Source: a virus. Taken from it: DNA of 20,460 bases. The translations under genes and the position numbers were made by a program. The notes under the pieces were generated by a model, which searched no databases, had not been told where the DNA came from, and saw only the letters and a list, made by a program, of their open reading frames with translations. The stretch lies in IMG/VR virus record IMGVR_UViG_3300020201_000280, positions 1 through 20,460 of that record; one strand, written 5' to 3'. The number at the start of each line of letters is the position of its first letter. The stretch's first letter is position 1. Shown here in pieces: positions 2,963 to 18,876 of this stretch.

Positions 2963-3157
2963 ATGAGAAATACAGTGGACAGAGAAATAACAATAAATGC
3001 ACGAGAACTAAAAGCACTATCAAGTGAATTTGGATTATCGTTCATAGAGAATAAGGGAAGCATCACTGTTGTAGGTGAGAAGCAATGGCTTGTCTTTGAT
3101 AAGCAATTTTTTTATAACCCGGAGGAAACACAATGTCGACTAATGGAAATTTATTAA
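2963..3157 (+). CDS. small hypothetical protein before SSB
   Basis: 64 residues, not recognised. The pattern of alternating hydrophobic residues (SITVVGEKQWLVFDKQFFY) suggests a small beta-rich fold. CAGGA at 2958-2962 directly before the ATG is weak and very close, so leaderless-like initiation from the nearby promoter is possible. Its 3' end overlaps the start of the next gene by 25 bases and carries that gene's GGAGGA site. Confidence 0.5.
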   Translation: MRNTVDREITINARELKALSSEFGLSFIENKGSITVVGEKQWLVFDKQFFYNPEETQCRLMEIY

Positions 3158-3651: not shown

Positions 3652-3688
3652 CCCCTCGTAAGGGTGCATTTTAACTTAGGAGAGCCAT

Positions 3689-5662
3689 ATGAACATCGCT
3701 ATTGACTTCGAAAGTCATCTAATAAGTGATGGTGGTATATTTCCTAAACCAGTTTGCCTCTCGACCTATGATGGAACGGAGGCTTTTTTATTGGATTCAG
3801 AAGGGGCCAGAAAATGGCTTGCCGAACATCTAAATAAAGACACTATTATTGCGCATAACGCAGTGTTCGAATGTGGTGTTATAATAACTCATTATCCTGA
3901 ACTCACAGATTTGGTGTTTGATGCACTAGACAATGATCTCATCTATTGCACCAAGATTAGTGAATCTCTATGGAACATTCAAAGAGAGAAAGCTTTATTC
4001 GGACTAACATTAGCAGGACTTGTTAAACACTATTTTGATAAAGACATTAGTGAAACTAAAACAGACCCAGATGCCTGGAGACTGCGCTATTCAGAACTGG
4101 ATGGAATTCCTATAAGTGAATGGCCTAAAAAAGCAGTTGACTATGCAATAGACGACTCCATATGGGCATATAAAGTGTATGGGAGACAATTAGGCATCAA
4201 TCAAAGTCTGGCACTAAAGGCGGCGGTGTACTTAAATTTAATGGGCTCTGAAGGGTTTGCAATCAATCAAGAGCGAGTTGAATTACTCGAGAAAGAGATA
4301 TGGGAATTCTTAACTCCTCGATATGACTTTCTTGTTAAAGAAGGATTCTGTGATTATATACCAAGACAAAAGCAACCCCGCAAACAGGTTAAGAAACTAA
4401 AAGAATATGTTGAAACATTAGGTGTCACCCTTATGTACACGAACAAAGGAGCCACGGCAACAAGTGGTGAGGCATTAGTTAGCTATTTGACACAACTCAC
4501 TTCCAATCCAGTGTTAAAAGCTTTTTCAGAATTATCGAAGTATGAGAAAATTCTAACATCTTATATTAAGAATCTAAAAGGCAATTCAAAGATATATTCA
4601 CAGTATTCTACAACGCTGAACACAGGACGCACAAGCTCCAGTGGTTCCAAATTATTCAGCTCTTTGAACATACAACAAATACCACGAGCAGTGGAGGGAG
4701 TTAGCTATGATGTCCGCAACTGTTTCATCCCTAGGGAAGGCTTTAAAATATGTTCTATTGACTATAGTGGCCTTGAGCTTTGCTCTGCTGCTCATCAGCT
4801 GTATAAAACTCTCGGTTATTCATACATGCGAGAAGCTCTTAATGAAGGCGATGAGCCAACAGATATGCATTCCAAATTGGCCGCTAAAATAAAGAAGATT
4901 CCATATGCGGAATTTATGAAACACAAAAAAGAAGCAGAATTCAAAGATGCCAGACAAAAAGCAAAGCCTATTAACTTAGGATTTCCTGGTGGTATTGGTT
5001 ATGACACCATGCGCCACCTCATGTGGAAAGACGGAATTAAAACTAACTTCCAAGTGCTCGAAACAGCTAAACGAAAGAACGATTTATATTACTATCTCAC
5101 TAACTTAGCGTCTCCAGACCTTAGAATTAAACGCATGCACAAAAATGAATATGCTTTGGTGCAGGATGAACTGGTGATGCTTAAGAAGTATATGTTTGAC
5201 CTATACCCATGTTTAGGGCAATTCCTAAAAGAAACTCATAATAAATTTTTAACAGGGCGAACAAAGTTTAAGAAGAATGATTTTGATGAGTGGGAAGAAG
5301 AACCTATGTATATGTACGACACCCACGGGTTTAAGCGAGATTGGTGCACCTACACAGCATTATGTAATGGCTTCTTAATGCAAACACCTTCGGCTGTAGG
5401 AGCGCAAAAAGCAGTTAATGCAATTGTCAGAAAATATCATGATTCTCCTGATGTATATCCTCAAGCATTTATTCATGACGAAATTGTATTTGAAGTGAGA
5501 GAAGGGCGAGAAGATTTAATGGGAGAAGCATCAATGATAATGATAGATGAAATGCAAACTGTATTAACATCAGTTAGGATTGCCGTAGAAGCAAGCATTA
5601 GCGATTATTGGCAGAAAGCAGATGGGTTTTGGACTAAATCTTTTTGGAGGAATGCAAAATGA
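3689..5662 (+). CDS. polA: family A DNA polymerase with 3'-5' exonuclease
   Basis: 657 residues; replicates phage DNA. The N-terminal DEDDy exonuclease is seen as IAIDFES (Asp6, Glu8), AHNAVFE (~55-61) and YAIDD (exo III). The polymerase domain shows motif A as SIDYSGLEL (Asp358, Glu363), motif B as RQKAKPINLGFPGG (Arg422, Lys426, Leu430, Gly434) and motif C as IHDEI (His596, Asp597, Glu598). There is no 5'-3' exonuclease domain, as usual in phage enzymes. The residue aligned with E. coli Pol I Phe762 is Leu430, and the one aligned with Tyr766 is Gly434. Exo II has Glu where Asp is usual (NAVFE). AGGAGAG at 3679-3685 precedes ATG 3689. The stop overlaps the next start as ATGA. Confidence 0.95.
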   Translation: MNIAIDFESHLISDGGIFPKPVCLSTYDGTEAFLLDSEGARKWLAEHLNKDTIIAHNAVFECGVIITHYPELTDLVFDALDNDLIYCTKISESLWNIQREKALFGLTLAGLVKHYFDKDISETKTDPDAWRLRYSELDGIPISEWPKKAVDYAIDDSIWAYKVYGRQLGINQSLALKAAVYLNLMGSEGFAINQERVELLEKEIWEFLTPRYDFLVKEGFCDYIPRQKQPRKQVKKLKEYVETLGVTLMYTNKGATATSGEALVSYLTQLTSNPVLKAFSELSKYEKILTSYIKNLKGNSKIYSQYSTTLNTGRTSSSGSKLFSSLNIQQIPRAVEGVSYDVRNCFIPREGFKICSIDYSGLELCSAAHQLYKTLGYSYMREALNEGDEPTDMHSKLAAKIKKIPYAEFMKHKKEAEFKDARQKAKPINLGFPGGIGYDTMRHLMWKDGIKTNFQVLETAKRKNDLYYYLTNLASPDLRIKRMHKNEYALVQDELVMLKKYMFDLYPCLGQFLKETHNKFLTGRTKFKKNDFDEWEEEPMYMYDTHGFKRDWCTYTALCNGFLMQTPSAVGAQKAVNAIVRKYHDSPDVYPQAFIHDEIVFEVREGREDLMGEASMIMIDEMQTVLTSVRIAVEASISDYWQKADGFWTKSFWRNAK

Positions 5663-5874
5663 CAGAACTTCAAGGTTGGTGTATCACATCCAAGGGAAGT
5701 TGGGTGAATCATAGTGCTACACATAGATTCACTTATTATGAAACATTGATACTTAGACGTCCAATGTATTATTGTAATTGTGGAAAGAAAATATCCCCTG
5801 AAGAGTACTTAGATTATTCTAATTATTTAATAGCAAGAGATAAGGTCTTAAAGTCATATATGGAGAAATTATAA
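5659..5874 (+). CDS. small protein with CxC motif
   Basis: 71 residues, not recognised. A MYYCNCGKK element (~36-44) could be half of a metal site, with Cys8 and His18/His22 as further possible ligands; otherwise it is aromatic and helical. ATG 5659 overlaps the polymerase stop as ATGA with GGAGGA at 5646-5651, so it is the start rather than the TTG at 5644. Translational coupling to the polymerase suggests a replication-linked role. Confidence 0.6.
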   Translation: MTELQGWCITSKGSWVNHSATHRFTYYETLILRRPMYYCNCGKKISPEEYLDYSNYLIARDKVLKSYMEKL

Positions 5875-5875
5875 A

Positions 5876-6403
5876 ATGTCTAAGAAATTTGAAACATTAA
5901 TCACTCCAACTTCATCGTTGTATGAGATATGTATATGGGATGATTTAGAGGAGTTCGAGCATTATGATGAACTCATGAAAATGATTCCGAAGATTAAAGA
6001 AAACGACCAAGTGATTTTGAAAGTTGCCACACCTGGAGGTAGATGTGATGTAGGCTTCATGTTAATAGACCGTTTCCAAGCATTGACTTGTATATGTGAT
6101 GTAGTTGTACCCTATCCAACATATTCAATGGGGGCAATTATGGCTTTATGTGGAGATTCGTTAGCCATGAATGCAGGTTCATTTCTCATGTTCCATGATT
6201 ATAGTACAGGCGGTAGAGGTAAAGGAAACGAACTCATAAAATCAACGGAGGCATTCAGTGAAATATTTGCTTATAGGTTTAACGCTATTTGTCAGCCATT
6301 CCTTACTGAGGAAGAGTGTAGAGCAGTCCTTGAAGGGCAAGATTTATATATCAAATGGAACGACCCTTCATTAAAGAAACGAATGAAGAGACATTTTAAA
6401 TGA
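5876..6403 (+). CDS. ClpP-like serine protease
   Basis: 175 residues with a ClpP/crotonase fold pattern. ATPGGRCDVG (51-60) matches the ClpP substrate-binding element, Ser84 in YPTYSMGAIMA is the nucleophile, and His107 in FLMFHDYSTGGRG is the general base; the acid is probably Asp156 or Asp163. Length is close to mature ClpP (~193). No ClpX/ClpA partner is encoded, so it may act alone or with a host unfoldase. In many phages such proteins mature the prohead, but here the gene lies among replication genes rather than with the capsid, favouring a regulatory role. Stop and next start overlap as ATGA. Confidence 0.75.
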   Translation: MSKKFETLITPTSSLYEICIWDDLEEFEHYDELMKMIPKIKENDQVILKVATPGGRCDVGFMLIDRFQALTCICDVVVPYPTYSMGAIMALCGDSLAMNAGSFLMFHDYSTGGRGKGNELIKSTEAFSEIFAYRFNAICQPFLTEEECRAVLEGQDLYIKWNDPSLKKRMKRHFK

Positions 6404-7116
6404 AGCGCTATATCATATGGTTAGTTATATTTGCAGCTCTAGAAATAGGGCTGGCTTTGTATCTCACTGTATGGAGAGAACATTTCTGGAATGCAGTGGC
6501 TCAAAAGCAATCAGTTACATTCTTACATCAGTTGTTAGTGTTCACAGGAGTGGCACTAGGGGCTTGTTTTGTATCGGGTTTCTCTGGATATTTAGTTAGC
6601 CTGACAGCTATTAAATGGAGAGAGAAATTAAACGATAAAGCATTTCCAATTCGCGAATTGGAAATAGAAAACATATCTCAGCGTATACAAGAAGATTGCA
6701 TGACATACCCAGACCTAGTGCTCAACTTAGCATTCGGCATAGCTAAAGCCATCATGTACATTCTTGTATTCTCAATATCACTTATACTTTCGTACCATTT
6801 CTGGTACTTAGGTGTGTTCATAGCATACACGTTAATAGGGATGGTGGTGACTAGATATATAGCCAAGCCACTCACTAAGAAGCAGAAGCAGTTAACATAT
6901 TTCCAACAGTTTTATAGCCAAATAGGGGTGGTGGTGCCTTTGATTATAATAGCCCCTTTCTATTTTACAACACCAATGACACTGGGAATGCTCATGAGGT
7001 TTAATAGTCTTTCATCCACGATTTTAGAAAACCTCTCATATGGAATTACAAGCTTTGCAACTATCAATAGGTTGATAAGCTGTAGAAAACGACTAAAGGA
7101 AGCAAAAATATTATGA
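6400..7116 (+). CDS. short SbmA/BacA-like peptide-transporter membrane protein
   Basis: 238 residues with about five hydrophobic segments (~4-22, 47-69, 107-130, 134-152, 174-190). Signatures of the SbmA/BacA and ABC_membrane_2 families are present: VWREHFWNAVAQ (24-35, like WNRDFYNALQ), EIENISQRIQED (88-99, like EGASQRIQED of SbmA), and a C-terminal APFYFTTPMTLGMLM (185-199) followed by TINRL (221-225). E. coli SbmA, a proton-driven importer of peptide antibiotics such as microcin B17, has 406 residues; here the middle appears deleted between ~160 and 170. No ATPase is fused. It may be a minimal transporter, or a dominant-negative partner of host SbmA. A 24-bp palindrome lies inside the gene. 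It is coupled on both sides by ATGA. Confidence 0.65.
   Translation: MKRYIIWLVIFAALEIGLALYLTVWREHFWNAVAQKQSVTFLHQLLVFTGVALGACFVSGFSGYLVSLTAIKWREKLNDKAFPIRELEIENISQRIQEDCMTYPDLVLNLAFGIAKAIMYILVFSISLILSYHFWYLGVFIAYTLIGMVVTRYIAKPLTKKQKQLTYFQQFYSQIGVVVPLIIIAPFYFTTPMTLGMLMRFNSLSSTILENLSYGITSFATINRLISCRKRLKEAKIL
6642..6665. repeat. 24-bp perfect palindrome inside the SbmA-like gene
   Basis: The 24 bases ATTTCCAATTCG / CGAATTGGAAAT are each other's exact reverse complement with no spacer. It codes for part of the loop just before the QRIQED motif. No T-run follows it, so it does not look like a terminator. Confidence 0.8.
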
Positions 7117-7763
7117 AACATATAGTTAAAACAGAAGAGGAATGGTTAGAATTACGTAAACAGTACATAACAGCTTCCGAAGCTTCAGTGTTAGTGGGAG
7201 CAGACCCATATTCTTCTCCAGGAAAACTGCGCAACCCAACGCCATTTAGTGGTAATGCATTTACATTTGTAGGACAAGTGTTAGAGCCTGTAGTGGTGGA
7301 CGTAGCAAACAGAGTGATGGGCACCTCGTTTCAGCTGTATGAGAATGCAGAAGGACATAAAGAGTTCTACACGGAAGGACTGATAGGAGCAACACCTGAT
7401 GCACATCAAGATAGAAAAATTTTGATGGAATGTAAAACAACACGTCCACACACATATTTAAAATATTCGTCTGTTCCACCAAGTAAGTATTTAATACAAT
7501 TGTTAGTGCAACTTATGTGTACAAACCTGGATGAGGGATATTTAGCTATTATGTCCACAGACCTAACACAAGCATCAGCGAAGCTGGTTTGGCCAATAGC
7601 AATATTTAAATTGTGGAAATGTGGGACAATATGTGATATACTTAAGACACAAGCAGAGAAATTTACAAAAGCTTGTGATGAAGGTAAAAGTTTTAGAGTG
7701 GATTCTAAAATTAAACAGAGAGTGAGACTCCTTCTCACATTGTGTTATGAGAGGACTATATGA
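7113..7763 (+). CDS. YqaJ-type phage recombination exonuclease
   Basis: 216 residues of the PD-(D/E)xK nuclease superfamily, YqaJ/lambda Exo branch; degrades one strand of double-stranded DNA ends to feed recombination. Seen: ITASEASVLVGADPYSSP (19-36, the conserved start), GQVLEP (Glu58), IGATPDA (Asp96) and LMECKTT (Glu106, Lys108), the full catalytic set. Lambda Exo is 226 residues, so it is full length. No annealing partner (RecT/Bet/Erf) is evident beside it; the SSB candidate might fill in. Starts in ATGA with the SbmA-like gene and ends in ATGA with the metalloprotease. Confidence 0.85.
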   Translation: MKHIVKTEEEWLELRKQYITASEASVLVGADPYSSPGKLRNPTPFSGNAFTFVGQVLEPVVVDVANRVMGTSFQLYENAEGHKEFYTEGLIGATPDAHQDRKILMECKTTRPHTYLKYSSVPPSKYLIQLLVQLMCTNLDEGYLAIMSTDLTQASAKLVWPIAIFKLWKCGTICDILKTQAEKFTKACDEGKSFRVDSKIKQRVRLLLTLCYERTI

Positions 7764-8314
7764 AAAAAACAACAGATTTTATATATGAACTAGTAATTGT
7801 AATTTTATTATACGCACTTGTAATAGGAGCAGTTTATTTAATATACACTAAAAATTTCAGTCAAAGTGCAGTGGATGAAAGAGTGAGAGACATATATCAA
7901 CAACTAATAGTTAACACAGGACAATCACAAGAAGCTCTTCCTTTGGTCATAGTGGAGTCTCCGGAAATAAACGCTTATAATGATGGCAATAACATTGTTA
8001 TATATAGAGGACTTATTGATTCAACAGAAAGTTGGGATGAGGTGGCATTAGTGCTCGGGCATGAAATTGCCCACGGGATGCTTTGGCATTTAAGAATGCT
8101 AAATCAGTGGAAATCATTTAATGATCAGGAAGTTAGTGTCATGGAAGCTAATGCAGACAAACTAGGGGTTGTATATATGATGAAAGCAGGGTACGATGTG
8201 TGTAAAGGAAGAGAGATGTTCAAGCACTGGAAAGAACTAAGGGGGAATGCGTTAGCACAATCTCACCCAGACTTTTCATATAGATATGACGAATTAAATA
8301 TTAACTGCAACTAG
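7760..8314 (+). CDS. membrane-anchored M48-type zinc metalloprotease
   Basis: 184 residues. One N-terminal membrane helix (~10-30) is followed by a gluzincin domain: HEIAH (101-105), a third ligand in EANAD (Glu129, with Asp133), and a late SHPDFSYRYDEL (168-179) resembling the tHPs..R..L end of M48 peptidases (HtpX, BepA, LoiP). The NAYNDGNNIVIYRGLI stretch (71-86) matches the M48 strand before the zinc helix. It probably sits in the inner membrane, with the side of the catalytic domain uncertain. It is distinct from the second M48-like gene at 18873. Coupled by ATGA to the exonuclease gene. Confidence 0.8.
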   Translation: MKKTTDFIYELVIVILLYALVIGAVYLIYTKNFSQSAVDERVRDIYQQLIVNTGQSQEALPLVIVESPEINAYNDGNNIVIYRGLIDSTESWDEVALVLGHEIAHGMLWHLRMLNQWKSFNDQEVSVMEANADKLGVVYMMKAGYDVCKGREMFKHWKELRGNALAQSHPDFSYRYDELNINCN

Positions 8315-8865: not shown

Positions 8866-9120
8866 ATGCAAAGTAAGAGACATAGTATTATAGAATCATG
8901 TACGAACGTTGCTAGTGGAATGGCAATAGCATTCGCTATTTCCCAGCTAGCACACTGGTTTGAGCCACAAATTCAGAAATATATATGGAGCGGATTTGAA
9001 TGGCACATATCAGCAGGAAGTAATGTAATAATGACTATGCTATTAACTGTGGTATCTGTAATAAGAGGATACGCATGGAGACGACATTTCAACGCTAAAT
9101 TGACCGAGGAGCAACAATGA
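8866..9120 (+). CDS. small two-helix membrane protein (DUF7220-like)
   Basis: 84 residues. RHSIIESCTNVASGMAIAFAI (5-25) and a second hydrophobic segment (~53-68) ending in VIRGYAWRRHFN match a widespread phage family with the pattern R.hS..E..tN...G......Q...F ... S..RsY..RR.F. The function of the family is not established. Its stop overlaps the PrkA start as ATGA, so it is translated with the kinase. Confidence 0.6.
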   Translation: MQSKRHSIIESCTNVASGMAIAFAISQLAHWFEPQIQKYIWSGFEWHISAGSNVIMTMLLTVVSVIRGYAWRRHFNAKLTEEQQ

Positions 9121-11012
9121 AACTTCAAAAGAAAGAGTATGACATAGAGGTTATGTCAATGGAAAAATACTTAAAGCTCGCCCAGAAAGATAGTTCTGTT
9201 CTCGACTCAGCTGCTCAGAGAATGTTGAAAGCTATAGGTGAGCCAATTAAGAAAGACACATCTAAAGACCCTCGACTTAGCCGTATATTCGGCAACAGAA
9301 CAATTAGACAATATGAAGTGTTTAAGGATTTCTATGGATTAGAGGAAGTTGTTTCTAGAATTATATCTTTCTTCCAACATGCTGCCCAAAATTTAGAGGA
9401 ATCCCGACAAATATTGTACTTGCTAGGACCTGTAGGTTCAGCCAAAAGCTCACTTGTTGAACGACTTAAATCTCTTATGGAAAAAAACCCTATATACATT
9501 CTCGCTGACGAGAATGGAACCCCAAGTCCGATTCATGAAAGCCCCTTAGGTGTATGTGGAGAAGATATTCTATCTGACTTAAAAATTAGCGCACCGTTAG
9601 TTATTCCTAGTCCGTGGGCTACAAAACGATTAAAGGAATACAAAGGTGATTTGTCTAAATTCAATGTTATTAAACGCACCCCCAATCAATTAGAACAGGT
9701 GGCAATATCTAAGACGGAGCCAGGCGATGAAAACAATCAAGATATTTCTGCGCTTGTGGGAAAAGTTGATATTAGAAAACTGGAACATTACGCTCAAAAT
9801 GATGCCGACGCTTACAGTTTTTGTGGTGGACTATGTTTGTCCAACCAAGGAATCTTGGAATTCGTTGAGATGTTCAAGGCTCCTATTAAGATGTTACACC
9901 CGCTGTTAACAGCTACACAAGAACGTAACTATAAGGGAACAGAAGCAATTCCTGCAATCCCGTTCCAAGGAATCATCATTGCACATAGTAATGAATCAGA
10001 GTGGGATACGTTTAAGAACAACAAGAATAATGAAGCGTTCTTAGACAGGGTTTACAGTGTCGAAGTGCCTTATTGTTTACAGATAGATGAGGAACAAAAG
10101 ATTTATAAGAAGCTCCTTAATAGCAGTACATTAAAGGATGCTCCAACAGCACCATACACATTGGACCTACTGGCTCAATTCTCTGTATTAACAAGAATTG
10201 AAAGTCCTGAGAATTCTAACATAGTAACTAAGATGAGGGTGTATAATGGAGAGAACGTCAAAGAAAAAGACTCTAGAGCCAAGAGCTTCCAAGAGTATAA
10301 AGACCAAACAAGTTCTAACGAAGGATTCTCTGGGATTAGCACTCGGCTGGGATATAAAGTCCTCGCTGAAGTTTATAACTTCGATTTTGAAGAAATAGCG
10401 GCTGACCCTGTACATTTGTTGTATGTACTAGAGAAAACTGTTAATAGTGCTAGATTGCCTAAAGAGACACAAGAAAAGTATATTGAATACATCAAGGAAT
10501 ACTTAGTGCCTTACTATGCATCTAAAGTGGGCAAAGACATTCAAACCGCTTATTTAGACTCTTATGATGAGTTTGGACAAGCTTTGTTTGATAGATATAT
10601 TGTATTCGCAGATCATTGGGTTCAAGATAATGATTACAGAGATGTGGACACAGGTCAGATGTTCGATAGAGAAATGCTTAACAAAGAACTAGAAAAGATT
10701 GAGAAGCCAGCTGAAATTTCTAATCCAAAAGATTTCAGACACGAGATTGTAAATTTTGCTCTACGCCATCAGGCTAAGCATGATTCGAAAAATCCTAAAT
10801 GGACTTCTTACGAGAAACTAAAACGAGTTATAGAAGCTACAATGTTTGCTAAAACTCAAGACTTACTCCCTGTGATATCATTCACTGGACAAGGTAATAA
10901 GAGTGAGAAGAAGAAACATGATTCATTCGTTGTTAGAATGCAAGAGCTAGGATACACTGAACGTCAAGTGCGCCGTATCGTAGAGTGGCACATGCGCGTG
11001 GTGAACTCGTGA
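9117..11012 (+). CDS. prkA: PrkA/YeaG-family serine protein kinase
   Basis: 631 residues, near the full length of E. coli YeaG (644). The N-terminal AAA-type domain has Walker A GPVGSAKS (104-111), the family block YSFCGGLCLSNQGILEFVEM with FKAP after it, and IIIAHSNESEWDTFKNNKNN, followed by EAFLDRVY. The C-terminal kinase-like domain has EKIEKPAEISNPKDFRHEIV, PKWTSYEKLKRVIE, LLPVISF and a final GYTERQVRRIVEWHMRV, all strongly conserved in the family. Bacterial PrkA acts in stress, starvation and sporulation responses; kinase activity and, in Bacillus, Lon-like proteolysis have been reported. Both domains appear intact. It starts in ATGA with the membrane protein before it, and is followed by YeaH- and SpoVR-like genes. 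Confidence 0.95.
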   Translation: MKLQKKEYDIEVMSMEKYLKLAQKDSSVLDSAAQRMLKAIGEPIKKDTSKDPRLSRIFGNRTIRQYEVFKDFYGLEEVVSRIISFFQHAAQNLEESRQILYLLGPVGSAKSSLVERLKSLMEKNPIYILADENGTPSPIHESPLGVCGEDILSDLKISAPLVIPSPWATKRLKEYKGDLSKFNVIKRTPNQLEQVAISKTEPGDENNQDISALVGKVDIRKLEHYAQNDADAYSFCGGLCLSNQGILEFVEMFKAPIKMLHPLLTATQERNYKGTEAIPAIPFQGIIIAHSNESEWDTFKNNKNNEAFLDRVYSVEVPYCLQIDEEQKIYKKLLNSSTLKDAPTAPYTLDLLAQFSVLTRIESPENSNIVTKMRVYNGENVKEKDSRAKSFQEYKDQTSSNEGFSGISTRLGYKVLAEVYNFDFEEIAADPVHLLYVLEKTVNSARLPKETQEKYIEYIKEYLVPYYASKVGKDIQTAYLDSYDEFGQALFDRYIVFADHWVQDNDYRDVDTGQMFDREMLNKELEKIEKPAEISNPKDFRHEIVNFALRHQAKHDSKNPKWTSYEKLKRVIEATMFAKTQDLLPVISFTGQGNKSEKKKHDSFVVRMQELGYTERQVRRIVEWHMRVVNS

Positions 11013-11200
11013 GTAGGTTTGGAGATGAAGAAGCCCCCAATGGAGGGCTTCTTTCTCACGACATGGTGAGGAGCACAGCAACTGAAGTGGCAATACTGAA
11101 GAGACAAGTACACGCTTTAACAAGAAATTTGGAACATTTATGTAATCAATATAACCGCTCTTTGTCGGAGAAATTATATGACTATTTCACAAGAAGATAG
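11009..11200 (+). CDS. small coiled-coil protein after PrkA
   Basis: 63 residues if started at GTG 11009, which overlaps the PrkA stop as GTGA; a start at ATG 11063 would give 46 residues. The helical part (TEVAILKRQVHALTRNLEHL) has heptad-like leucine/valine spacing. A strong hairpin at 11028-11053 lies inside the longer version, arguing that either the shorter form is real or the gene is reached only by read-through. No family recognised. Confidence 0.45.
   Translation: MSRFGDEEAPNGGLLSHDMVRSTATEVAILKRQVHALTRNLEHLCNQYNRSLSEKLYDYFTRR
11028..11053 (+). terminator. intrinsic terminator or attenuator after PrkA
   Basis: AAGAAGCCC (11028-11036) pairs with GGGCTTCTT (11045-11053), a perfect 9-bp stem with further C-G pairing in the loop, followed by TCTC (11054-11057). 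The T-run is short (CTTCTTTCTC overall), so termination may be partial. It sits 16 bases after the PrkA stop and before the YeaH-like gene, so it could lower expression of YeaH and SpoVR relative to the kinase. Confidence 0.6.
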
Positions 11201-11243
11201 ACAGCCAGAACCCATTCCTGTAATTCCGCCCTTTGGAGGCTAA
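11178..11243 (+). CDS. 21-residue proline-rich micro-ORF upstream of YeaH
   Basis: MTISQEDRQPEPIPVIPPFGG, 21 residues. It has its own GGAG at 11167-11170, overlaps the end of the previous small gene, and stops one base before ATG 11245 of the YeaH-like gene, with the YeaH ribosome site inside its last codons. It may be a leader ORF that couples or tunes YeaH translation; the run of prolines could slow ribosomes. It could also be chance. Confidence 0.3.
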   Translation: MTISQEDRQPEPIPVIPPFGG

Positions 11244-11244
11244 C

Positions 11245-12393
11245 ATGACAATCATAGACAAAAGAAAGACAGGAAAGAACAAGTCTGTAGGTAATAGGCA
11301 GAAGTTCATTAAACGATATAAAAGTCGTATCAAACGTTCTATTGATTCTATATCTAGAGATAAAGGGATTACAGACATATTGAAAGACCGTAAAGTTGTC
11401 ATAGATCAAGACGAAATTGAAGAGCCAAACTTTAATTTTGATATGACTAAAGGCGAACGTGACGTAATATTTACAGGTAATAAAACATTACACAAAGGAG
11501 ACAAGATTCACAGGCCTCCGCCCTCAGATGAAGAGGGAACAGAAGGGAGTGACACAGGAGAAGGCTTTGATGAATTCTCTTTTACGCTCACCAAAGAAGA
11601 GTTTTTAGAGTTATATTTCAGTGACATGAAGCTCCCTGAATTTATTAAAGAAAGTATGAAGGGCACAGCTAAGTGGAAGATGAAACGGTCAGGCTACTCC
11701 AAAGAGGGCATACCTCCGAGGCTCGACCTGGTCAAGACTTTAAAGCAAGCCATGGCTAGGAGAATATCCACAAAATCCAAGCGCTATTTGGACGACATTG
11801 ATTTACGTTATAAGCATTTCACTAAACACCCATTCCCTGTGAAGCAAGCCACAATGATTTTATTGATGGACATATCAGGCAGCATGGGAGAGTTTGAAAA
11901 GGGATTGGCTAAGAAGTTCTTCTTGTTGTTATATTTATTTTTGAATAAGGTGTATAAAGATGTCGAAGTCATATTTATCAGTCACACGCAAGATGCTCAA
12001 GAAGTTACAGAACAAGAGTTCTTCTACGGAGAAGAAACCGGTGGCACCGTTGTCTCTTCTGGTTTACAGATGGTTAAAGACATTATAGATAGTCGTATTA
12101 ATTTAAATGAGACGAATGTGTATATAGCCCAGGCTTCAGACGGAGATAATTGGCCTGGAGAAGAAGATTTGATAGCTAGTTTGATGGAAGATTTATTGTC
12201 CAAAGTGCAGTACTTCGCATATATACAAACAGAAGAAGCTGAACGTAAGGAGTATAAAGCTAAATACGGCATTGATGACATATACACCTTATATGCGGCA
12301 TTAGAGGCCTCACACAGAAACTTGAACGCGAAATATGTCAGCTCTGAGGATGAGGTGTACCCTGTGCTTAGAAGTTTATTTGAAGACAACTAA
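11245..12393 (+). CDS. yeaH: YeaH/YhbH-family (DUF444) vWA-domain protein
   Basis: 382 residues; E. coli YeaH is ~427. The N-terminal part is basic with an RFIKRYKSRIKRSI-like element, then VIFTGNKTLHKGDKI and an acidic linker (~95-110). The C-terminal vWA domain has the MIDAS motif MDISGSMG (Asp209, Ser211, Ser213), Thr268 in EETGGTVVSSG and Asp299 in QASDGDNW, so metal-dependent protein binding should be intact. In bacteria this gene sits next to prkA and is a proposed adaptor or substrate of the kinase. The start is ATG 11245 with TTGGAGG at 11232-11238; an in-frame TTG at 11233 lies within that ribosome site and is rejected. Confidence 0.93.
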   Translation: MTIIDKRKTGKNKSVGNRQKFIKRYKSRIKRSIDSISRDKGITDILKDRKVVIDQDEIEEPNFNFDMTKGERDVIFTGNKTLHKGDKIHRPPPSDEEGTEGSDTGEGFDEFSFTLTKEEFLELYFSDMKLPEFIKESMKGTAKWKMKRSGYSKEGIPPRLDLVKTLKQAMARRISTKSKRYLDDIDLRYKHFTKHPFPVKQATMILLMDISGSMGEFEKGLAKKFFLLLYLFLNKVYKDVEVIFISHTQDAQEVTEQEFFYGEETGGTVVSSGLQMVKDIIDSRINLNETNVYIAQASDGDNWPGEEDLIASLMEDLLSKVQYFAYIQTEEAERKEYKAKYGIDDIYTLYAALEASHRNLNAKYVSSEDEVYPVLRSLFEDN

Positions 12394-12409
12394 TTAGAGG
12401 GAGAATATA

Positions 12410-12610
12410 ATGACTAATCCAGACTATAGAACGTGGGCTGACAACATAGTGTTATTAGCACAAGAACACGGAACTGCTAGAGAAGAAATCGAGCATGCCC
12501 TAGAAGCCGCATTTAAACAAGGATATTCTCTAGGACTTAATTATGGATGGGTAATAGAACAAGACAAATATTATAAAGGTTTCGCATATAAAGGAATTCC
12601 TAATGACTAA
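12410..12610 (+). CDS. small helical protein between YeaH and phosphoesterase
   Basis: 66 residues, not recognised. IVLLAQEHGTAREEIEHALE (14-33) and then AAFKQGYSLGLNYG give a two-helix pattern resembling the 56-residue protein at 13399 (LLA..., then DLGYTEGTEDA), so the two may be distant paralogues. GAGGGAGAA at 12397-12405 precedes ATG 12410. It overlaps the phosphoesterase start by eight bases. Confidence 0.55.
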   Translation: MTNPDYRTWADNIVLLAQEHGTAREEIEHALEAAFKQGYSLGLNYGWVIEQDKYYKGFAYKGIPND

Positions 12611-13397
12611 ATTAATATGGGTGTCAGATGTTCATCTAAATTTTCTACAAGATGAAGAACAAGAGAGATATAAGTTTTATGATAAGCTTAAAGAAGCCGA
12701 AGGCGAGCATATATTAATTACAGGTGATATAGCAGAAAGTCATAATGTTGTCATGTATATAGAAGAGATGATGGAGCGTACAGGCAAACCAGTACACTTT
12801 GTTCTTGGCAATCACGACTTCTATGGCTCTAAACTGCTCGATGTTAAGCGTAGCGTACGTCACCTAGGTTACCTACCTAAAAACTTTGGAGTGCCTCTAA
12901 ACGACTCTACAATCCTTATAGGTGTAGACGGATGGGGTGACTGTCGAAATGGTGACTATGAGAACAGCCGCTTAACAATGAGTGACTGGATACACATAGA
13001 AGATTTAAGGATTGAGTATAAGAAGGGTATGAAGGCCCTTAAGAAGAAGCTTATGTATATAGCCGATTTAGATGCGGGCAAATTAAAGCGGCGTGTTATA
13101 AAAGCTATTGCCGAGGGATATACAAATATTATAATAGCAACACATGTTCCTCCCTTTGAAGAAGTTTGTTTGAATGCAGGAAAGAAGAGCACACCGTGTG
13201 GATTACCTTTCTTCACTTCTAAATGTCTAGGAGATACAATTGTCCCTATAGCTAAATCCAACCCAAAGGTTGACTTTTTATGGATTTCGGGCCATACTCA
13301 TAGTAGGGCTAAATATAAGCCATGTAATAATTTAACATCAAAAGTAGCTAAAGCTGAATATTATCATCCTCGAATTGAGGATATTATTGAGGTGTAA
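12603..13397 (+). CDS. calcineurin-like metallophosphoesterase
   Basis: 264 residues with the complete set of two-metal phosphoesterase motifs: SDVHLN (Asp9, His11), GDIAES (41-46), GNHDFYG (69-75), ATHVPPF (His181) and GHTHSR (230-235). The substrate cannot be told from the sequence; relatives cleave phosphoproteins, nucleotides or cyclic nucleotides. Its position inside the PrkA-YeaH-SpoVR cluster invites the idea that it reverses kinase phosphorylation, which is inference only. It is not closely similar to the second phosphoesterase at 17291, which has Gln rather than His in motif I. Confidence 0.85.
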   Translation: MTKLIWVSDVHLNFLQDEEQERYKFYDKLKEAEGEHILITGDIAESHNVVMYIEEMMERTGKPVHFVLGNHDFYGSKLLDVKRSVRHLGYLPKNFGVPLNDSTILIGVDGWGDCRNGDYENSRLTMSDWIHIEDLRIEYKKGMKALKKKLMYIADLDAGKLKRRVIKAIAEGYTNIIIATHVPPFEEVCLNAGKKSTPCGLPFFTSKCLGDTIVPIAKSNPKVDFLWISGHTHSRAKYKPCNNLTSKVAKAEYYHPRIEDIIEV

Positions 13398-13398
13398 A

Positions 13399-13569
13399 AT
13401 GAACATAGTAAAATTTAAAGATGTGAGACAAAAGATTGAAGACGCGGCTGAATTATTGGCGAAGTCAGAACTTTCCAATTTTGAGTACGATGAAGTATTT
13501 AGAATTCTAGAAGTAATATATGACTTGGGATATACTGAAGGTACTGAGGATGCTCACATTTATATATGA
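13399..13569 (+). CDS. small helical protein before SpoVR
   Basis: 56 residues, not recognised; acidic and helical (KIEDAAELLAKSELSNFEYD, then EVFRILEVIYDLGYTEG). The start ATG 13399 directly follows the phosphoesterase stop with GAGGTG at 13390-13395; an upstream in-frame alternative at 13375 is unnecessary. It resembles the 66-residue product at 12410 in layout. Being placed directly before SpoVR, it may be an accessory of that module. Confidence 0.55.
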   Translation: MNIVKFKDVRQKIEDAAELLAKSELSNFEYDEVFRILEVIYDLGYTEGTEDAHIYI

Positions 13570-13578
13570 GGAAATAAT

Positions 13579-15078
13579 ATGAAAAAGAATAAGCTCTTAT
13601 TTTCAGGCAGTGAATGGGATGTTCCATTGATAGAGAAAATGTGGAAAACCATTGAGGATATAGGACGAAATAAGTTCGGACTAGACCCCTTCCCTGCTCA
13701 AATTGAAATCATAACAGCAGAGCAGATGCTTGATTGCTACAGCTCTGTTGCTATGCCCGTGATGTATAATCATTGGAGTTTCGGCAAGACATTTATACAA
13801 AATGAAAGTGCTTATAATAAAGGTATGCAGGGGCTAGCCTACGAGGTGGTGATTAACACAAACCCTTGTATTGCATATCTTATGGAAAACAACACAGCAA
13901 CGATGCAAGCCCTTGTGTTGGCACATGCATCTGTAGGTCATAGTCATTTCTTCAAGAACAACTACTTATTTAAAAAATGGACTGATGCAGACACTATTGT
14001 CGACTATCTTAAATTTGCTCGTAATTTCATTAAACAATGTGAAGAGAAATATGGTGAGAAACGTGTTGAATCACTTCTTGATAGTTGTCACAGCTTGCAG
14101 AATCACAGTATTGATAAATATAAAAAACCACCTTCTTTAAAATCAGAATTGAAAAAGCAAAGAGCTAAGCATTGGGAAAAATATTTCGAAACAACCTTTA
14201 ATGACTTATGGAGAACTGTGCCTCCAAAAACAACTAAGAGTAGAGATTTAGCAATTATTGCAGACAATGAACCTGAAAAAGTGTCTGAAGAAAACATTCT
14301 CTACTTTATTGAAAAGCACAGCCCAATTTTAGAAGGATGGGAAAGAGAGGTGATAAGAATTGTTCGTAAAGTGAGCCAATATTTTTATCCTCAACGCCAA
14401 ACTCAGCTTCTCAACGAGGGATGGGCCACCTTCACCCATCATATGTTAATGACTGAAATGTATGACCAAGGATTAATAAATGAAGGGTCTTACCTTGAGT
14501 TCTTAACGTCTCATACAGGTGTTGTATCTCAACTTGGATGGGAGAGTAAGCATTACACAGGTATTAACGTATATGCTTTAGGCTTCGCCATGCTTACAGA
14601 CATTAAGCGTATCTGCATGTCTCCAGATGAAGAAGACTTAAAATGGTTCCCAGAAATAGCTAACACTGATTGGATTGAAACGATTAAACACATCGTAGAA
14701 AACTATAGAGATGAAAGCTTTGTGTTACAATATTTAAGTCCTAAAGTGGCAAGACAATTTAAATTATTTGCTATTAAAATACAAGAAGGAGTGGGATATT
14801 TAAAAGTTGGAGCTACACATGACGATGACGATTTTTTAACGATACGTAAGACGTTAGCAGAACAATATGATTTAAGTGGACAAATTCCTCAAATAGAAAT
14901 CACAGGAGTAGATTGGAAGGGGGATAGATGGTTGCACCTCGAACATAAGACAAAAAATAATCAACGTTTAGATTATACAGATATGAAGAAGACAGTTGAA
15001 CATATCCGTAAGCTGTGGGGATTCACAGTTAAAATGGAATATAAAGACCTAGACGGTGCCATATTGGATGGTGTGTAA
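13579..15078 (+). CDS. spoVR: SpoVR/YcgB-family protein
   Basis: 499 residues, close to E. coli YcgB (510). Family blocks are all visible: MPVMYNHWSFGKTF (~59-72), GLAYEVVINTNPCIAYLMEN, ALVLAHASVGHSHFFKNNYLF (His116, His121, His123), LLDSCHSLQNH, DLWRTVPP, ILEGWEREVIRIVRKVSQYF, LLNEGWATFTHH (Glu280, His287, His288) and YLSPKVARQF. The His/Glu residues look like a metal site, and a metal-dependent hydrolase has been suggested for the family. SpoVR supports cortex formation in Bacillus, and E. coli ycgB belongs to the RpoS regulon with yeaGH. The C-terminal conserved region is present, so no truncation is evident. GAGGAAATA at 13567-13575 precedes the ATG. Confidence 0.93.
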   Translation: MKKNKLLFSGSEWDVPLIEKMWKTIEDIGRNKFGLDPFPAQIEIITAEQMLDCYSSVAMPVMYNHWSFGKTFIQNESAYNKGMQGLAYEVVINTNPCIAYLMENNTATMQALVLAHASVGHSHFFKNNYLFKKWTDADTIVDYLKFARNFIKQCEEKYGEKRVESLLDSCHSLQNHSIDKYKKPPSLKSELKKQRAKHWEKYFETTFNDLWRTVPPKTTKSRDLAIIADNEPEKVSEENILYFIEKHSPILEGWEREVIRIVRKVSQYFYPQRQTQLLNEGWATFTHHMLMTEMYDQGLINEGSYLEFLTSHTGVVSQLGWESKHYTGINVYALGFAMLTDIKRICMSPDEEDLKWFPEIANTDWIETIKHIVENYRDESFVLQYLSPKVARQFKLFAIKIQEGVGYLKVGATHDDDDFLTIRKTLAEQYDLSGQIPQIEITGVDWKGDRWLHLEHKTKNNQRLDYTDMKKTVEHIRKLWGFTVKMEYKDLDGAILDGV

Positions 15079-15101: not shown

Positions 15102-15350
15102 ATGAAACATCTGATTAAAAAACTAGGGATGATGCCTCCAAATGTATTGACGCCTATTGTGCTTGCACAATATTTCCAAGAACAAAAATATGCATGTATT
15201 AAGGGTGAGGAATTAGCAGGACTCAAAGCAGTGGGAGGAAGTAAAGCATGGCTAGGACACACTAAAACAGGAAGTGCATATAAGAATGATGTGCCAACAG
15301 GTGCTATGTATAAAACACTAAAGAAATTTTTGGAGGAATTTTATGAATAA
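15102..15350 (+). CDS. small hypothetical protein after SpoVR
   Basis: 82 residues, not recognised. MKHLIKKLGMMPPNVLTPIV is followed by an amphipathic, lysine-rich stretch and a C-terminal helix (MYKTLKKFLEEFYE). TTAAGGGGAA at 15088-15097 precedes ATG 15102. It overlaps the start of the beta-helix gene by eight bases. Confidence 0.55.
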   Translation: MKHLIKKLGMMPPNVLTPIVLAQYFQEQKYACIKGEELAGLKAVGGSKAWLGHTKTGSAYKNDVPTGAMYKTLKKFLEEFYE

Positions 15351-15975
15351 ATACAAAATGATAAAACGTGAAAACTTATATCAAATTAAAGCTTTGCGCG
15401 ACGTAGGAGAGGATGTAAAAAAGGGAGATTTGGGAGGACGTGTTGAAAATGAAGGTAATTTGTCTCAAGACGGTGAAGCATGGATTTATAGGGATGCTAA
15501 GGTTTACGGCAATGCACACGTTTCAGGCGATGCACATGTTTTTGACAATGCACACGTTTCAGGCAATGCACACGTTTCAGGCGATGCACATGTTTTTGAC
15601 AATGCACACGTTTCAGGCAATGCACACGTTTCAGGTGAAGCATGGATTTATAGGGATGCTAAGGTTTATGTCAATGCACACGTTTCAGGCAATGCACACG
15701 TTTCAGGTGAAGCATGGATTTATAGGGACGCTAAGGTTTACGACAATGCACACGTTTCAGGCAATGCACACGTTTCAGGTGATGCAGAAGTGTACGGACA
15801 GGCATATGTTTTTGGTAATGCACACGTTTCAGGTGATGCAGAAGTGCACGGACAGGCATATGTTTTTGGTAATGCACACGTTTCAGGTGATACAGAAGTG
15901 TACGGACAGGCATATGTTTTTGGCAGGTTAGAGTTACCAAAGAAACCACAAGGCAACCAGAACTTACAGGACTAG
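15343..15975 (+). CDS. YdcK-like repeat protein, left-handed beta-helix
   Basis: 210 residues. The N-terminus (YQIKALRDVGEDVKKGDLGG, then RVENEGNLSQDGEAWIY) resembles E. coli YdcK (GGWVDADNVLSQQGDCWIY). From ~residue 44 to 197 the protein is built of six-residue units such as NAHVSG, DAHVFD, DAKVYG and QAYVFG, the hexapeptide pattern that folds as a left-handed beta-helix. There are three GEAWIYRDAKVY blocks and three near-identical EVYGQAYVFGNAHVSG-type blocks. Bulky Val/Phe/Tyr every six residues fit the helix core. It could be a structural or carbohydrate-related protein; no catalytic residue is evident. GGAGGAAT at 15332-15339 is the ribosome site. Confidence 0.75.
   Translation: MNKYKMIKRENLYQIKALRDVGEDVKKGDLGGRVENEGNLSQDGEAWIYRDAKVYGNAHVSGDAHVFDNAHVSGNAHVSGDAHVFDNAHVSGNAHVSGEAWIYRDAKVYVNAHVSGNAHVSGEAWIYRDAKVYDNAHVSGNAHVSGDAEVYGQAYVFGNAHVSGDAEVHGQAYVFGNAHVSGDTEVYGQAYVFGRLELPKKPQGNQNLQD
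15511..15920 (+). repeat. tandem 18-bp coding repeats with 54-bp higher-order units
   Basis: Inside the beta-helix gene, 18-bp units of the type AATGCACACGTTTCAGGC recur in frame. A 54-bp block (one GATGCACATGTTTTTGAC plus two of the above) occurs twice in succession at 15529-15582 and 15583-15636 with one base difference at the end. Another ~54-bp block carrying GAAGT(G)-ACGGACAGG recurs three times between 15780 and 15920. Synonymous sites are conserved too, so the copies are recent. The regularity keeps other frames open by chance. Confidence 0.85.
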
Positions 15976-16884: not shown

Positions 16885-17298
16885 GTGGGAAACTACCATG
16901 AATGGGGCGACACCGATTTCGATTGGAAAGCTCTGGACGATGCTTCATACTACCTTCAAGACAATTGTAGACGATGGGCTAGAATGGGAATATGGACTAA
17001 AGAGAAATATGGAACTCTTCGCGTGTCTACAACATGCGCATATTTTCAAGAGATTGATTTTCTCCACACTATATTCTATCCAGGACATGCCTACATAAGA
17101 TGGCCTCGATGGTTTAGAGTTTATATAGATTGGCCATTTGGATGGGTGATGAAGAAGTTAGGAATTGTTCGTCTACTTCAGATTTATCAATATAACACCT
17201 TAAAGTTTTTTTGGAAGAGGGCAACTAAGAAGTGGCCTCACATATCAGAAGAAATCCTAGATGATTATGAATGGATTATAGGAGATTTAAATGACTAA
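16885..17298 (+). CDS. aromatic-rich hypothetical protein, GTG start
   Basis: 137 residues, unusually rich in Trp and Tyr (RRWARMGIWTKEKYGTLRVS; WPRWFRVYIDWPFGWVMKKL). No family is recognised with confidence; the WxKEKYGTLR motif recalls other phage proteins of unknown role. GTG 16885 is chosen because TAGGAGAG at 16873-16880 lies just upstream; an ATG at 16898 belongs to another frame with poor composition. The stop overlaps the phosphoesterase start. Confidence 0.6.
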   Translation: MGNYHEWGDTDFDWKALDDASYYLQDNCRRWARMGIWTKEKYGTLRVSTTCAYFQEIDFLHTIFYPGHAYIRWPRWFRVYIDWPFGWVMKKLGIVRLLQIYQYNTLKFFWKRATKKWPHISEEILDDYEWIIGDLND

Positions 17299-18058
17299 GC
17301 ATTTACTAATACCAGATGTGCAGACAAAAGAAGGTGTTCCAACGGACCATCTTGAATGGCTTGGTCAATATATAGTGGATAAGCAACCGGACGTTCTAAT
17401 ATGTATAGGAGACTTCGCTGACATGCCGAGCCTATCCTCGTTTGATAAAGGTAAGAAGAGCTTTGAAGGACGAAGATATAAGAAAGACATCGCTGCTGCT
17501 AAGTTTGCTATGGACACTCTACTAGGCCCCTTAAGAAAACATAATAAGCACATGCAGAAAATTAAGCAGAAACAATACAAGCCTAGAATGGTGATGACGC
17601 TCGGTAACCACGAGCAACGAATAGAAAGAGCTATAGAATGTCAGGCGGAGCTTGAGGGCATTCTCGGGTATCATGACCTCCCTTACGAAGACTGGGAAGT
17701 GCACGACTTTCTAAAGCCTGTGGTGATTGATGGTGTCTTGTATGTCCACTATCTATCTAATCCAATGAATGGGAAGCCGTATGGGGGCACCGCATTAAAT
17801 CAGTTAGGTAAAGTGCAGCATAGCTTCTGTGTAGGCCATAAGCAGACATTAGAGCATGCCACCTATTTCACACCATTGGGCAAACAAACCACCGGAGTAG
17901 TGGCAGGGGCGTTCTATCAGCATAATGAAGAATATAAAGGATATCAAGGTAATGCACATTGGAGAGGAATAGTTATGTTGCATGATGTTCATGAAGGTAA
18001 CTTTGACCCCATGTTTGTATCAATGAGATATTTACGGAGGCGATACGGGACACTATGA
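17291..18058 (+). CDS. phage calcineurin-like metallophosphoesterase (PDVQ type)
   Basis: 255 residues. Two-metal phosphoesterase motifs: PDVQTK (Asp9, Gln11 in place of His), IGDFADMP (39-46), LGNHEQR (104-110), a His in YVHYLS (~153) and VGHKQTLEHA (181-190). This DxQ/GNHE variety is common in tailed phages, and its substrate is not established. Full length. The gene ends in CTA TGA C, and a second reading frame lacking a start codon continues from that point. Confidence 0.8.
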   Translation: MTKHLLIPDVQTKEGVPTDHLEWLGQYIVDKQPDVLICIGDFADMPSLSSFDKGKKSFEGRRYKKDIAAAKFAMDTLLGPLRKHNKHMQKIKQKQYKPRMVMTLGNHEQRIERAIECQAELEGILGYHDLPYEDWEVHDFLKPVVIDGVLYVHYLSNPMNGKPYGGTALNQLGKVQHSFCVGHKQTLEHATYFTPLGKQTTGVVAGAFYQHNEEYKGYQGNAHWRGIVMLHDVHEGNFDPMFVSMRYLRRRYGTL

Positions 18059-18197
18059 CAAACAACGAGAACAACAAGCAGAACGAGAGCGTACAACTTT
18101 TAGATATAGGACATATGAAAGTTATATAGAAGAGTCTTTTAGTAACCTTAGAAAAGAAATAAATGAATTGAAGAGGAGTGGAAATGAAAACATCTAA
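18045..18197 (+). other. open helical reading frame lacking a standard start codon
   Basis: In the +1 frame relative to the phosphoesterase, codons from 18045 to stop TAA 18195-18197 read as a plausible coiled-coil tail (DKQREQQAERERTTFRYRTY, then EESFSNLRKEINELKR). No ATG, GTG or TTG exists in frame between the upstream stop (18024-18026) and the helix; ACG 18045, four bases after GGAGG (18036-18040), is the best local start candidate. It could also be expressed by +1 frameshifting at the phosphoesterase stop, or be broken by a mutation or sequencing error. Confidence 0.45.
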
Positions 18198-18876
18198 TGA
18201 AGGAAAAGTTGAGATTATAGGACATGAGGGTATATGTCTAAGCAAATATAAAGACTCGGTGGGAGTTTGGACAATAGCAGGAGGAGCTACGAAATCTGAG
18301 ATTCCTGACATAGCTTCTTGGCCACTATCTAAAACATTAACAATGAAGGACGCATTTGACCTATTTAGTAAGAGCATCACTAAGTATGAGAATGCTGTTA
18401 ATAAGTCACTTACACGTCCTATTCCACAATATCAATTTGACGCATTGGTCAGTTGGTGTTATAATGTAGGTGTCGGGTACACTCGCCAGGTATTCGATAA
18501 AAAGGGTAATATGATACGAGACACTGCCACCGTCATCAAACTTATTAATAAGGGAGCTGGCGGTGCAGACTTGCATAGAGCGTTAATGATGTATAGAAAA
18601 CCTATAGAGATTATTGGACGACGCACTAAAGAAGCAAATCTATTAGCATACGGTAGATATAGTAATAACGGAAAGGCATTGTTATTCCCTGTATCAAGCA
18701 AAGGATATCCCATATATTCTAAAGGCACATTAATTAACGTATGGCAATATATTTCTGATACAGATACAGATGAACCCGTTGTTCCTGAAGTGATGAAGGA
18801 AGAAGAAAAAAACCCTTCTTTGTTACAGAGGACATTAATATTAATCAACAAGTATTTGAATAAGGAGGGGATGTGA
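18184..18876 (+). CDS. T4-type lysozyme (glycoside hydrolase 24 endolysin)
   Basis: 230 residues; cleaves peptidoglycan glycan strands to release phage. The catalytic triad pattern Glu15-x8-Asp24-x5-Thr30 (HEGICLSKYKDSVGVWTIAGG) matches T4 lysozyme Glu11-Asp20-Thr26. FDALVSWCYNVG (~81-92) and LMMYRKPIEIIGRRTKEANLL (~139-159) are further family blocks. There is no signal peptide, so a holin would be needed. The C-terminal ~60 residues form an extension past the enzyme domain and end in RTLILINKYLNK, which recurs at the end of the next protein. GAGGAG at 18173-18178 supports ATG 18184 over GTG 18178. Confidence 0.92.
   Translation: MKTSNEGKVEIIGHEGICLSKYKDSVGVWTIAGGATKSEIPDIASWPLSKTLTMKDAFDLFSKSITKYENAVNKSLTRPIPQYQFDALVSWCYNVGVGYTRQVFDKKGNMIRDTATVIKLINKGAGGADLHRALMMYRKPIEIIGRRTKEANLLAYGRYSNNGKALLFPVSSKGYPIYSKGTLINVWQYISDTDTDEPVVPEVMKEEEKNPSLLQRTLILINKYLNKEGM
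18826..18865 (+). repeat. repeat A, copy 1 (end of lysozyme gene)
   Basis: A 40-bp segment beginning CAGAGGACATTAATATTAAT and coding for QRTLILINKYLNK; it matches 19314-19353 at 39 of 40 positions and supplies the GGAGG ribosome site region for the following gene. See the cassette finding. Confidence 0.9.

Follow-up and report, generated by a model that had tools for sequence, protein, structure and literature searches.

Three genes known from bacteria, encoding the AAA+ protein PrkA (YeaG), the von Willebrand factor A (vWA)-domain protein YeaH (YhbH) and SpoVR (YcgB), lie in order on a 20,460-bp virus fragment in IMG/VR, IMGVR_UViG_3300020201_000280 (hereafter the window, meaning this whole stretch), whose carrier has been described as a small soil phage. 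The locus raises the question of why a phage would carry all three genes and what their products might do together in the infected cell. The comparative analysis described herein led us to consider the trio a complete functional module, acquired once, in which the AAA+ protein PrkA and the vWA protein YeaH act on SpoVR as an output supplied by the phage, a reading that we hold to be evenly balanced.

Composition and conservation of the trio

The three genes of the window are as follows.

9117-11012, + strand: PrkA/YeaG family AAA+ protein, 631 aa (Pfam PF08298, 1e-149; PF06798, 9.6e-58)
11233-12393, + strand: YeaH/YhbH (DUF444) vWA-domain protein, 386 aa (PF04285, 4.1e-116)
13579-15078, + strand: SpoVR/YcgB family protein, 499 aa (PF04293, 1.8e-153; SpoVR_C, PF24755, 3.2e-16)

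A preliminary description of this DNA had placed PrkA, YeaH and SpoVR in this order on the + strand, near full length and with conserved motifs, and the Pfam matches, end to end or almost so, together with the intact catalytic residues were in full agreement with it. In PrkA, the AAA_PrkA domain spans residues 13-368 (profile 1-358 of 358) and the PrkA C-terminal domain residues 370-624 (profile 1-255 of 255), while SpoVR covers positions 1-406 of 407 in PF04293 and 1-54 of 55 in PF24755. The better start of YeaH is probably the ATG at 11245.

To see how often the full set occurs in phages, which the preliminary description had been unable to say, co-occurrence was counted among the candidate stretches confirmed in IMG/VR (338 with SpoVR relatives and 236 with PrkA relatives), taking the best 80 loci per scan, removing identical copies and requiring a flank of at least 4.5 kb. 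The whole trio was found in the order PrkA-YeaH-SpoVR at 44 of the 45 viral PrkA loci and at all 58 viral SpoVR loci, and thus occurs often. The sole exception among the PrkA loci (L201) is a cellular-type contig, 98% identical to a bacterium; L219, L225 and L239 also look cellular by PrkA identity, the four ranging from 83 to 98% identity to bacteria. YeaH followed PrkA at every locus with enough flank, viral (45/45) as well as bacterial (69/69), and the order PrkA-YeaH-SpoVR was observed at 62 of the 69 proteobacterial loci retrieved with enough flank. L013-L017 and Thermus phage phiLo show a second, distant arrangement, YeaH-SpoVR-PrkA; in the huge phage LR756502, about 240 kb separate SpoVR from PrkA-YeaH, the linkage being lost and the set retained. 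These observations suggested that viral spoVR is usually part of a PrkA-YeaH-SpoVR set. Enterobacter phage LAU1 (MN688132.1, L019, 1-3308) was rejected as a second phage case, its yeaGH lying at the record end with 98% identity to an enterobacterial chromosome; judged by sequence, this record opens with host yeaGH, flanking DNA of a prophage having been deposited as phage.

Intein-like insertions, each with HN or GN as its last residues and Cys/Ser following, were found at three different conserved sites of viral copies, namely in SpoVR of L007 (13041-15377) after NEGWA, in SpoVR of L180 (7986-10214) after LDAY, and in PrkA of L165 (3769-6648) after GVILSH. Sites that are conserved for function are the ones that inteins prefer. 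The PADLOC anti-phage and counter-defence models contained no family for PrkA, YeaH or SpoVR.

The trio is under purifying constraint in the phage lineage. Between the window trio and its nearest kin, the nonsynonymous divergence (dN) was 0.08-0.23 and the synonymous divergence (dS) was saturated or 2.6-3.4, dN/dS ratios being mostly not computable owing to the saturation of dS. The reading frames were intact across the phage group except for SpoVR of L011, the C-terminal end of which is cut short in one frame, possibly by a sequencing error.

Origin and retention in the phage lineage

The nearest bacterial PrkA was 62% identical to the window copy among the matches listed, where the bacterial rows of trees and scan were all or nearly all from Proteobacteria. 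Both a concatenated FastTree tree and the IQ-TREE trees built separately for PrkA, YeaH and SpoVR placed the phage group in one clade and the Proteobacteria sampled in a different one; in the three separate trees, support for the phage group was 83, 79 and 96, respectively, and hence moderate in two of them. In GC content the trio genes (36.6-38.8%) differed little from the backbone of the phage (38.6%). On the grounds of this identity, the separate clade and the backbone-like GC content, a recent acquisition from a host was rejected; the possibility of such an acquisition with decaying frames, raised in the preliminary description, is contradicted. Sporulation, which that description also mentions, is not a fitting frame, as the bacterial proteins retrieved that stand closest come from Proteobacteria and not from spore formers.

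The adjacent DNA polymerase gene (polA) was used as the lineage marker for gain and retention, and 17 loci carrying it were found. All 11 loci with a polA identity of at least 56% carry PrkA (the contig ends inside the gene in three), and SpoVR is present wherever the contig reaches that far. Among six fragments of 16-44 kb with a polA identity of 42-49%, neither a PrkA over the family cut-off nor SpoVR was detected, and in L295, L297 and L300 the stretch from exonuclease to lysozyme is covered and the trio absent. Since PrkA is carried by the former contigs and seen in none of the latter, the sequences indicate that the trio was probably gained once by the ancestor of the lineage and then retained; loss of the trio was not seen among the near relatives. 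In the trio-less L295 (10985-11551) and L297 (13541-14050), the YqaJ exonuclease is followed by a sigma-70-family gene (Sigma70_r4, in L295 also r2), in the region that the trio block occupies in the window's group. No substitute AAA+/vWA pair was found at the trio position in the trio-less relatives, the AAA+ protein there being ClpX-like (phrog_4339), of a family which is also present in the window's own phage group.

The proposal in the preliminary description that selection acts on the complete set is supported by the co-occurrence counts, the low dN beside high or saturated dS, the agreement of the three trees and the retention of the module in the polA-related clade. Its suggestions about purpose, that the trio may keep the host in a starvation-like state or counteract host signalling, gained no such support.

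Conserved residues and structural models

In the window PrkA, the Walker A motif reads GPVGSAKSS with K110, and alignment identified K110, R220 and K414 as the equivalents of K116, R232 and K426 of E. coli YeaG, mutants of which fail to complement (PMC4664914). A phmmer search matched the protein to PDB entry 9xip (1.7e-52), one of the solved PrkA-family structures (9xip, 9xiq and 9xir).

In YeaH, the metal ion-dependent adhesion site (MIDAS), comprising D213-x-S215-x-S217, T272 and D303, was invariant in all 89 aligned rows. A search of the PDB by sequence gave no match for YeaH. Its AlphaFold2 (AF2) model, with a predicted local distance difference test score (pLDDT) of 81.8, has a vWA fold, matching vWA domains with Z of about 15-16. 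Rea1, whose MIDAS domain operates together with an AAA+ ring, ranked among the best structural matches (Z 15.6 over 182 residues for that domain), and the Foldseek matches included NorD.

In SpoVR, E89, H116, H121 and E280, the last within an NEG(W/F)A motif, were invariant in all 86 aligned rows. A strand with GxxYE is followed in the protein by a helix with His-x4-His and then by one with NEG(W/F)A, as in the M1 enzymes. The largely helical AF2 model (pLDDT 88.4) was compared using VIA-align, whose rows were nearly all gluzincin metallopeptidases or their relatives, including 3o0y (Z 12.4), leukotriene A4 hydrolase (LTA4H, 10.2), M1 aminopeptidases, M32 carboxypeptidases and angiotensin-converting enzyme (ACE); the top families M1, M32, M2 and M3 ran from Z 12.4 down to about 7, and the tool warns that Z below about 13 may be meaningless in helical proteins. 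No peptidase family was found for SpoVR in Pfam up to E 10, and a PDB search by sequence likewise gave no match.

Proposed mechanism

In the proposed mechanism, PrkA would act as an ATP-driven AAA+ ring and YeaH as its MIDAS-bearing vWA adaptor, and SpoVR would be a gluzincin-fold metalloprotein serving as effector or client. An AAA+ protein, a MIDAS vWA protein and a putative metalloprotein together match the make-up of metal-insertion and remodelling systems of the NorQ-NorD-nitric oxide reductase type, and on the simplest reading PrkA-YeaH would remodel SpoVR or supply it with metal, much as nitric oxide reductase is served by NorQ-NorD. Metal insertion into client enzymes by AAA+/vWA pairs has been described; for NorD, the insertion of iron depends on a finger that reaches from the vWA domain into the AAA+ pore (PMC13036017). 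E. coli strains mutated in yeaG or in yeaH are alike in how they adapt to nitrogen starvation (PMC4664914). During infection the phage would bring a copy of a machine which in Proteobacteria is produced chiefly upon starvation or stress, and the output of the module, be it an adaptation of the cell state or of the envelope and proteome, would be available regardless of the growth phase of the host. We infer the AAA+/vWA/client assembly, the binding of metal by SpoVR and the benefit to the phage.

Several observations weigh against this mechanism. PrkA appears to belong to an AAA family of its own and not to MoxR proper: in a profile search, AAA_PrkA was the best family, and the matches to AAA_5 and bpMoxR were weak. 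The phage-group YeaH lacks a helix-like insertion of 42-51 aa that precedes the vWA domain, outside the Pfam definition, in all 23 sampled bacterial rows; six podoviral rows have 4-12 aa there, and this loss might mean an altered coupling. The SpoVR model had no match at E 0.001 in a Foldseek search of the PDB, and hhalign of SpoVR with M1 and M32 peptidases, using shallow alignments, returned probabilities of 0.1-0.2, such that homology to either family found no support by profile-profile comparison. The catalytic Glu of HExxH is absent, SpoVR having HxxxGH (HCVGH or HVLGH in distant rows). Finally, the advantage to the phage would have to be deduced from retention by itself. In view of the missing HExxH Glu and the lack of profile-profile support, we hypothesize from the model that SpoVR has a metal site of the gluzincin type but not the classical chemistry of a peptidase.

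A wider version of the mechanism, in which an AAA+/vWA machine metallates or activates the gluzincin-fold SpoVR, diverse phages carry the trio to impose a switch of host state, and the viral "sporulation" gene spoVR and the "serine kinase" genes are pieces of one system, is offered as a tentative possibility.

Alternative functions

The preliminary description had called PrkA a kinase, and the trio could be a take-over of signalling in which PrkA is mainly a Ser/Thr kinase of host regulators with YeaH and SpoVR as accessories. In vitro kinase activity of recombinant YeaG is cited in PMC4664914, the K426A mutant in the kinase-like domain is non-complementing, and the equivalent of K414 is kept in 66 of the 67 aligned viral PrkA rows. 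In PrkA of B. anthracis, on the other hand, kinase activity was undetectable and protease activity negligible, and the kinase domain has no P-loop (PMC13001217). Because of this conflict between the two reports, the kinase function of PrkA is doubtful and contested, and "kinase" is better taken as a historical family name. A kinase by itself would also leave the near-constant vWA partner and SpoVR unexplained, and we regard this function of the module as unlikely.

The phage trio could instead disturb that of the host through mixed rings or a decoy adaptor and shut off the host stress response. Many Proteobacteria do have their own copy of the trio, and a podoviral YeaH without the 42-51 aa insertion could make a faulty adaptor. 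In L004 (12355-13569) and L006 (12094-13314), this insertion of YeaH is replaced by a zinc-ribbon-like segment of 29-33 aa, CxxC-x(n)-CxxCxGxG. A decoy would, however, need one subunit only and would not keep all catalytic residues, whereas the ATPase and MIDAS residues and the invariant residues of SpoVR are kept throughout the three proteins; interference is thus improbable in our judgment.

The carrier phage and the genes around the trio

Eleven viral contigs matched the window PrkA over all or most of its length at 68-93% identity (L012 at 53%), most of them with the same surrounding gene order; at the DNA level, no near match to the window was present among the 50,697 phage records compared. 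One relative, a contig of 44,161 bp, has ends that overlap exactly over 127 bases inside prkA, and this overlap suggests a complete genome, either circularly permuted or end-repeated. It encodes terminase, portal, head-closure, DNA-ejection, tail-fibre and endolysin genes, together with a weak match to a major head protein, and its terminase is 40% identical to that of EBPR podovirus 1. As no integrase was found in nine members of the window's phage group, the carrier is likely, judging by gene content, a lytic, podovirus-like phage. Of 50 trio-bearing viral contigs, Terminase_6N was matched in 24 and the Gp23 capsid family in 18 (three of the latter below the family cut-off), and none had the ribosomal L2 gene.

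In the 44,161-bp relative, trio and structural genes occupy opposite strands, and the trio is grouped with the replication and lysis genes. This arrangement bears on a further possibility, that the AAA+/vWA pair is a chaperone that helps to build the virion, for which a precedent has been proposed in group 2.2 jumbo phages, where a MoxR-vWA pair with a fused metallopeptidase may aid virion assembly (PMC7824862). Besides the placement of the trio, the failure to detect a trio in the more distant polA relatives argues against such a role, as does the retention of all three bacterial proteins including SpoVR, which act in phage-free cells; we consider a part in assembly quite unlikely. That the window is in fact cellular DNA or the flank of a prophage wrongly filed under viruses, or that the trio is a recent pick-up without function, is hardly credible despite the precedents of LAU1 and the four bacterial-like viral contigs mentioned above, given a PrkA at most 62% identical to the bacterial copies listed, the virion genes of the relative with the terminal overlap, the lack of ribosomal L2 and a trio GC content close to that of the backbone.

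The other genes assigned in the window, with a replication/recombination block (3133-7763) on the 5' side of the trio, are as follows.

3133-3651, + strand: single-stranded DNA-binding protein (SSB), Gp2.5-like (phrog_112), replication/recombination block
3689-5662, + strand: DNA polymerase A (phrog_17), same block
5876-6403, + strand: ClpP-like serine protease (phrog_1827), same block
7113-7763, + strand: YqaJ/RecE-like exonuclease (phrog_434), same block
12410-12610, + strand: small open reading frame (ORF), 66 aa, between YeaH and SpoVR
12603-13397, + strand: calcineurin-like metallophosphoesterase (PF00149, 1.7e-12), between YeaH and SpoVR
13375-13569, + strand: small ORF from the ORF list, 64 aa, no assigned function
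17291-18058, + strand: second metallophosphoesterase (phrog_221), 3' of the trio
18178-18876, + strand: endolysin (phrog_7), 3' of the trio

The trio had been described as one operon. It does lie in a same-strand run of closely spaced or overlapping genes; three ORFs nevertheless separate YeaH from SpoVR, and a sequence scan found promoter- and terminator-like sites no more often than by chance, so that a single transcription unit is a possibility only. By tblastn synteny, the 66-aa ORF adjoins YeaH in three relatives (L002-L004), and the metallophosphoesterase at 12603-13397 holds the same position in these three, lies elsewhere in L009 and was undetected in L006, L007, L011 and L012. As it was moved or undetected in several relatives, it was rejected as a fourth member of the module.

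Several further features of the window were observed. The ClpP-like gene is on the opposite strand in several relatives (L005-L007). At 605-1066 there is a GGDEF-domain protein (PF00990, 6.8e-21) with an intact IGGDEF motif and an apparent N-terminal membrane segment, and no homologue of it was seen in the related loci compared by tblastn synteny. Two small metallopeptidase-like proteins, at 7760-8314 and 18873-19364, with HEIAHG and HELGH motifs, match each other's relatives by tblastn, and a repeat protein of HVSGNAHVSGDAHV-type units, probably a beta-helix, is encoded at 15343-15975 with a relative at other places in L003 and L008.

Comparison with known systems

The bacterial counterparts, yeaG-yeaH of E. 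coli, involved in nitrogen starvation, with ycgB/spoVR, and prkA-yhbH-spoVR elsewhere, comprise the same three families end to end with the same essential residues. The window trio differs from them in its lytic-looking phage carrier, its identity of at most 62% among the matches listed, its location between replication and lysis genes, and a YeaH in which no helical insertion precedes the vWA domain.

In phages, single members were already known. In ocean oxygen-minimum-zone viromes, spoVR was reported to be the most abundant viral "sporulation" gene and was read there as such (PMC8940887). The Ralstonia jumbo phage RsoM2USA carries PrkA (ORF30) and SpoVR (ORF28) on one strand, published as separate genes with SpoVR filed under replication; the text lists no third member, and the stretch of about 1.35 kb left unlisted between the two ORFs would fit DUF444 (PMC8504454). 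Thermus phages phiYS40, TMA, phiLo, MN1 and Lalka have PrkA and a DUF444-like vWA protein in each matched record, with SpoVR close by in phiLo and MN1, the genes being annotated as "serine kinase", "conserved bacterial protein" and "stage V sporulation protein R". They differ from the window trio in showing about 22-32% identity, in forming a separate, distant branch and, in phiLo, in the gene order shared with L013-L017. The huge uncultured phages LR745206, LR756502 and LR756504 (634-642 kb) and many large IMG/VR contigs have the complete trio with 56-59% PrkA identity, in large genomes unlike those of the window's group. No description of the full trio as a recurrent viral module was found in the open-access literature; subscription papers were outside this search, and priority is thus unproven.

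The MoxR AAA+/vWA pairs NorQ-NorD, RavA-ViaA and CbbQ-CbbO resemble PrkA-YeaH in that an AAA+ ring with a MIDAS vWA partner would work on a client enzyme. Unlike them, PrkA has its own AAA family and a C-terminal domain, and the ring, the finger insertion and the loading of metal are for PrkA-YeaH presumed from the analogy.

Implications

The yeaGH/ycgB (prkA/yhbH/spoVR) genes belong to those stress genes of bacteria that are conserved widely while their biochemical function is still unsettled. The recurrence of the full set in highly diverse phages, with genomes of about 44 kb up to more than 600 kb, suggests that PrkA, YeaH and SpoVR work jointly and that their action pays off in the infected cell, and it corrects the literature reading of viral spoVR as a sporulation gene and of PrkA as a stand-alone kinase. 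SpoVR as the metalloprotein client of an AAA+/vWA pair would be the new part, if confirmed. Since Thermus phages that grow in T. thermophilus carry homologues, they offer a direct experimental route to the function of the trio.

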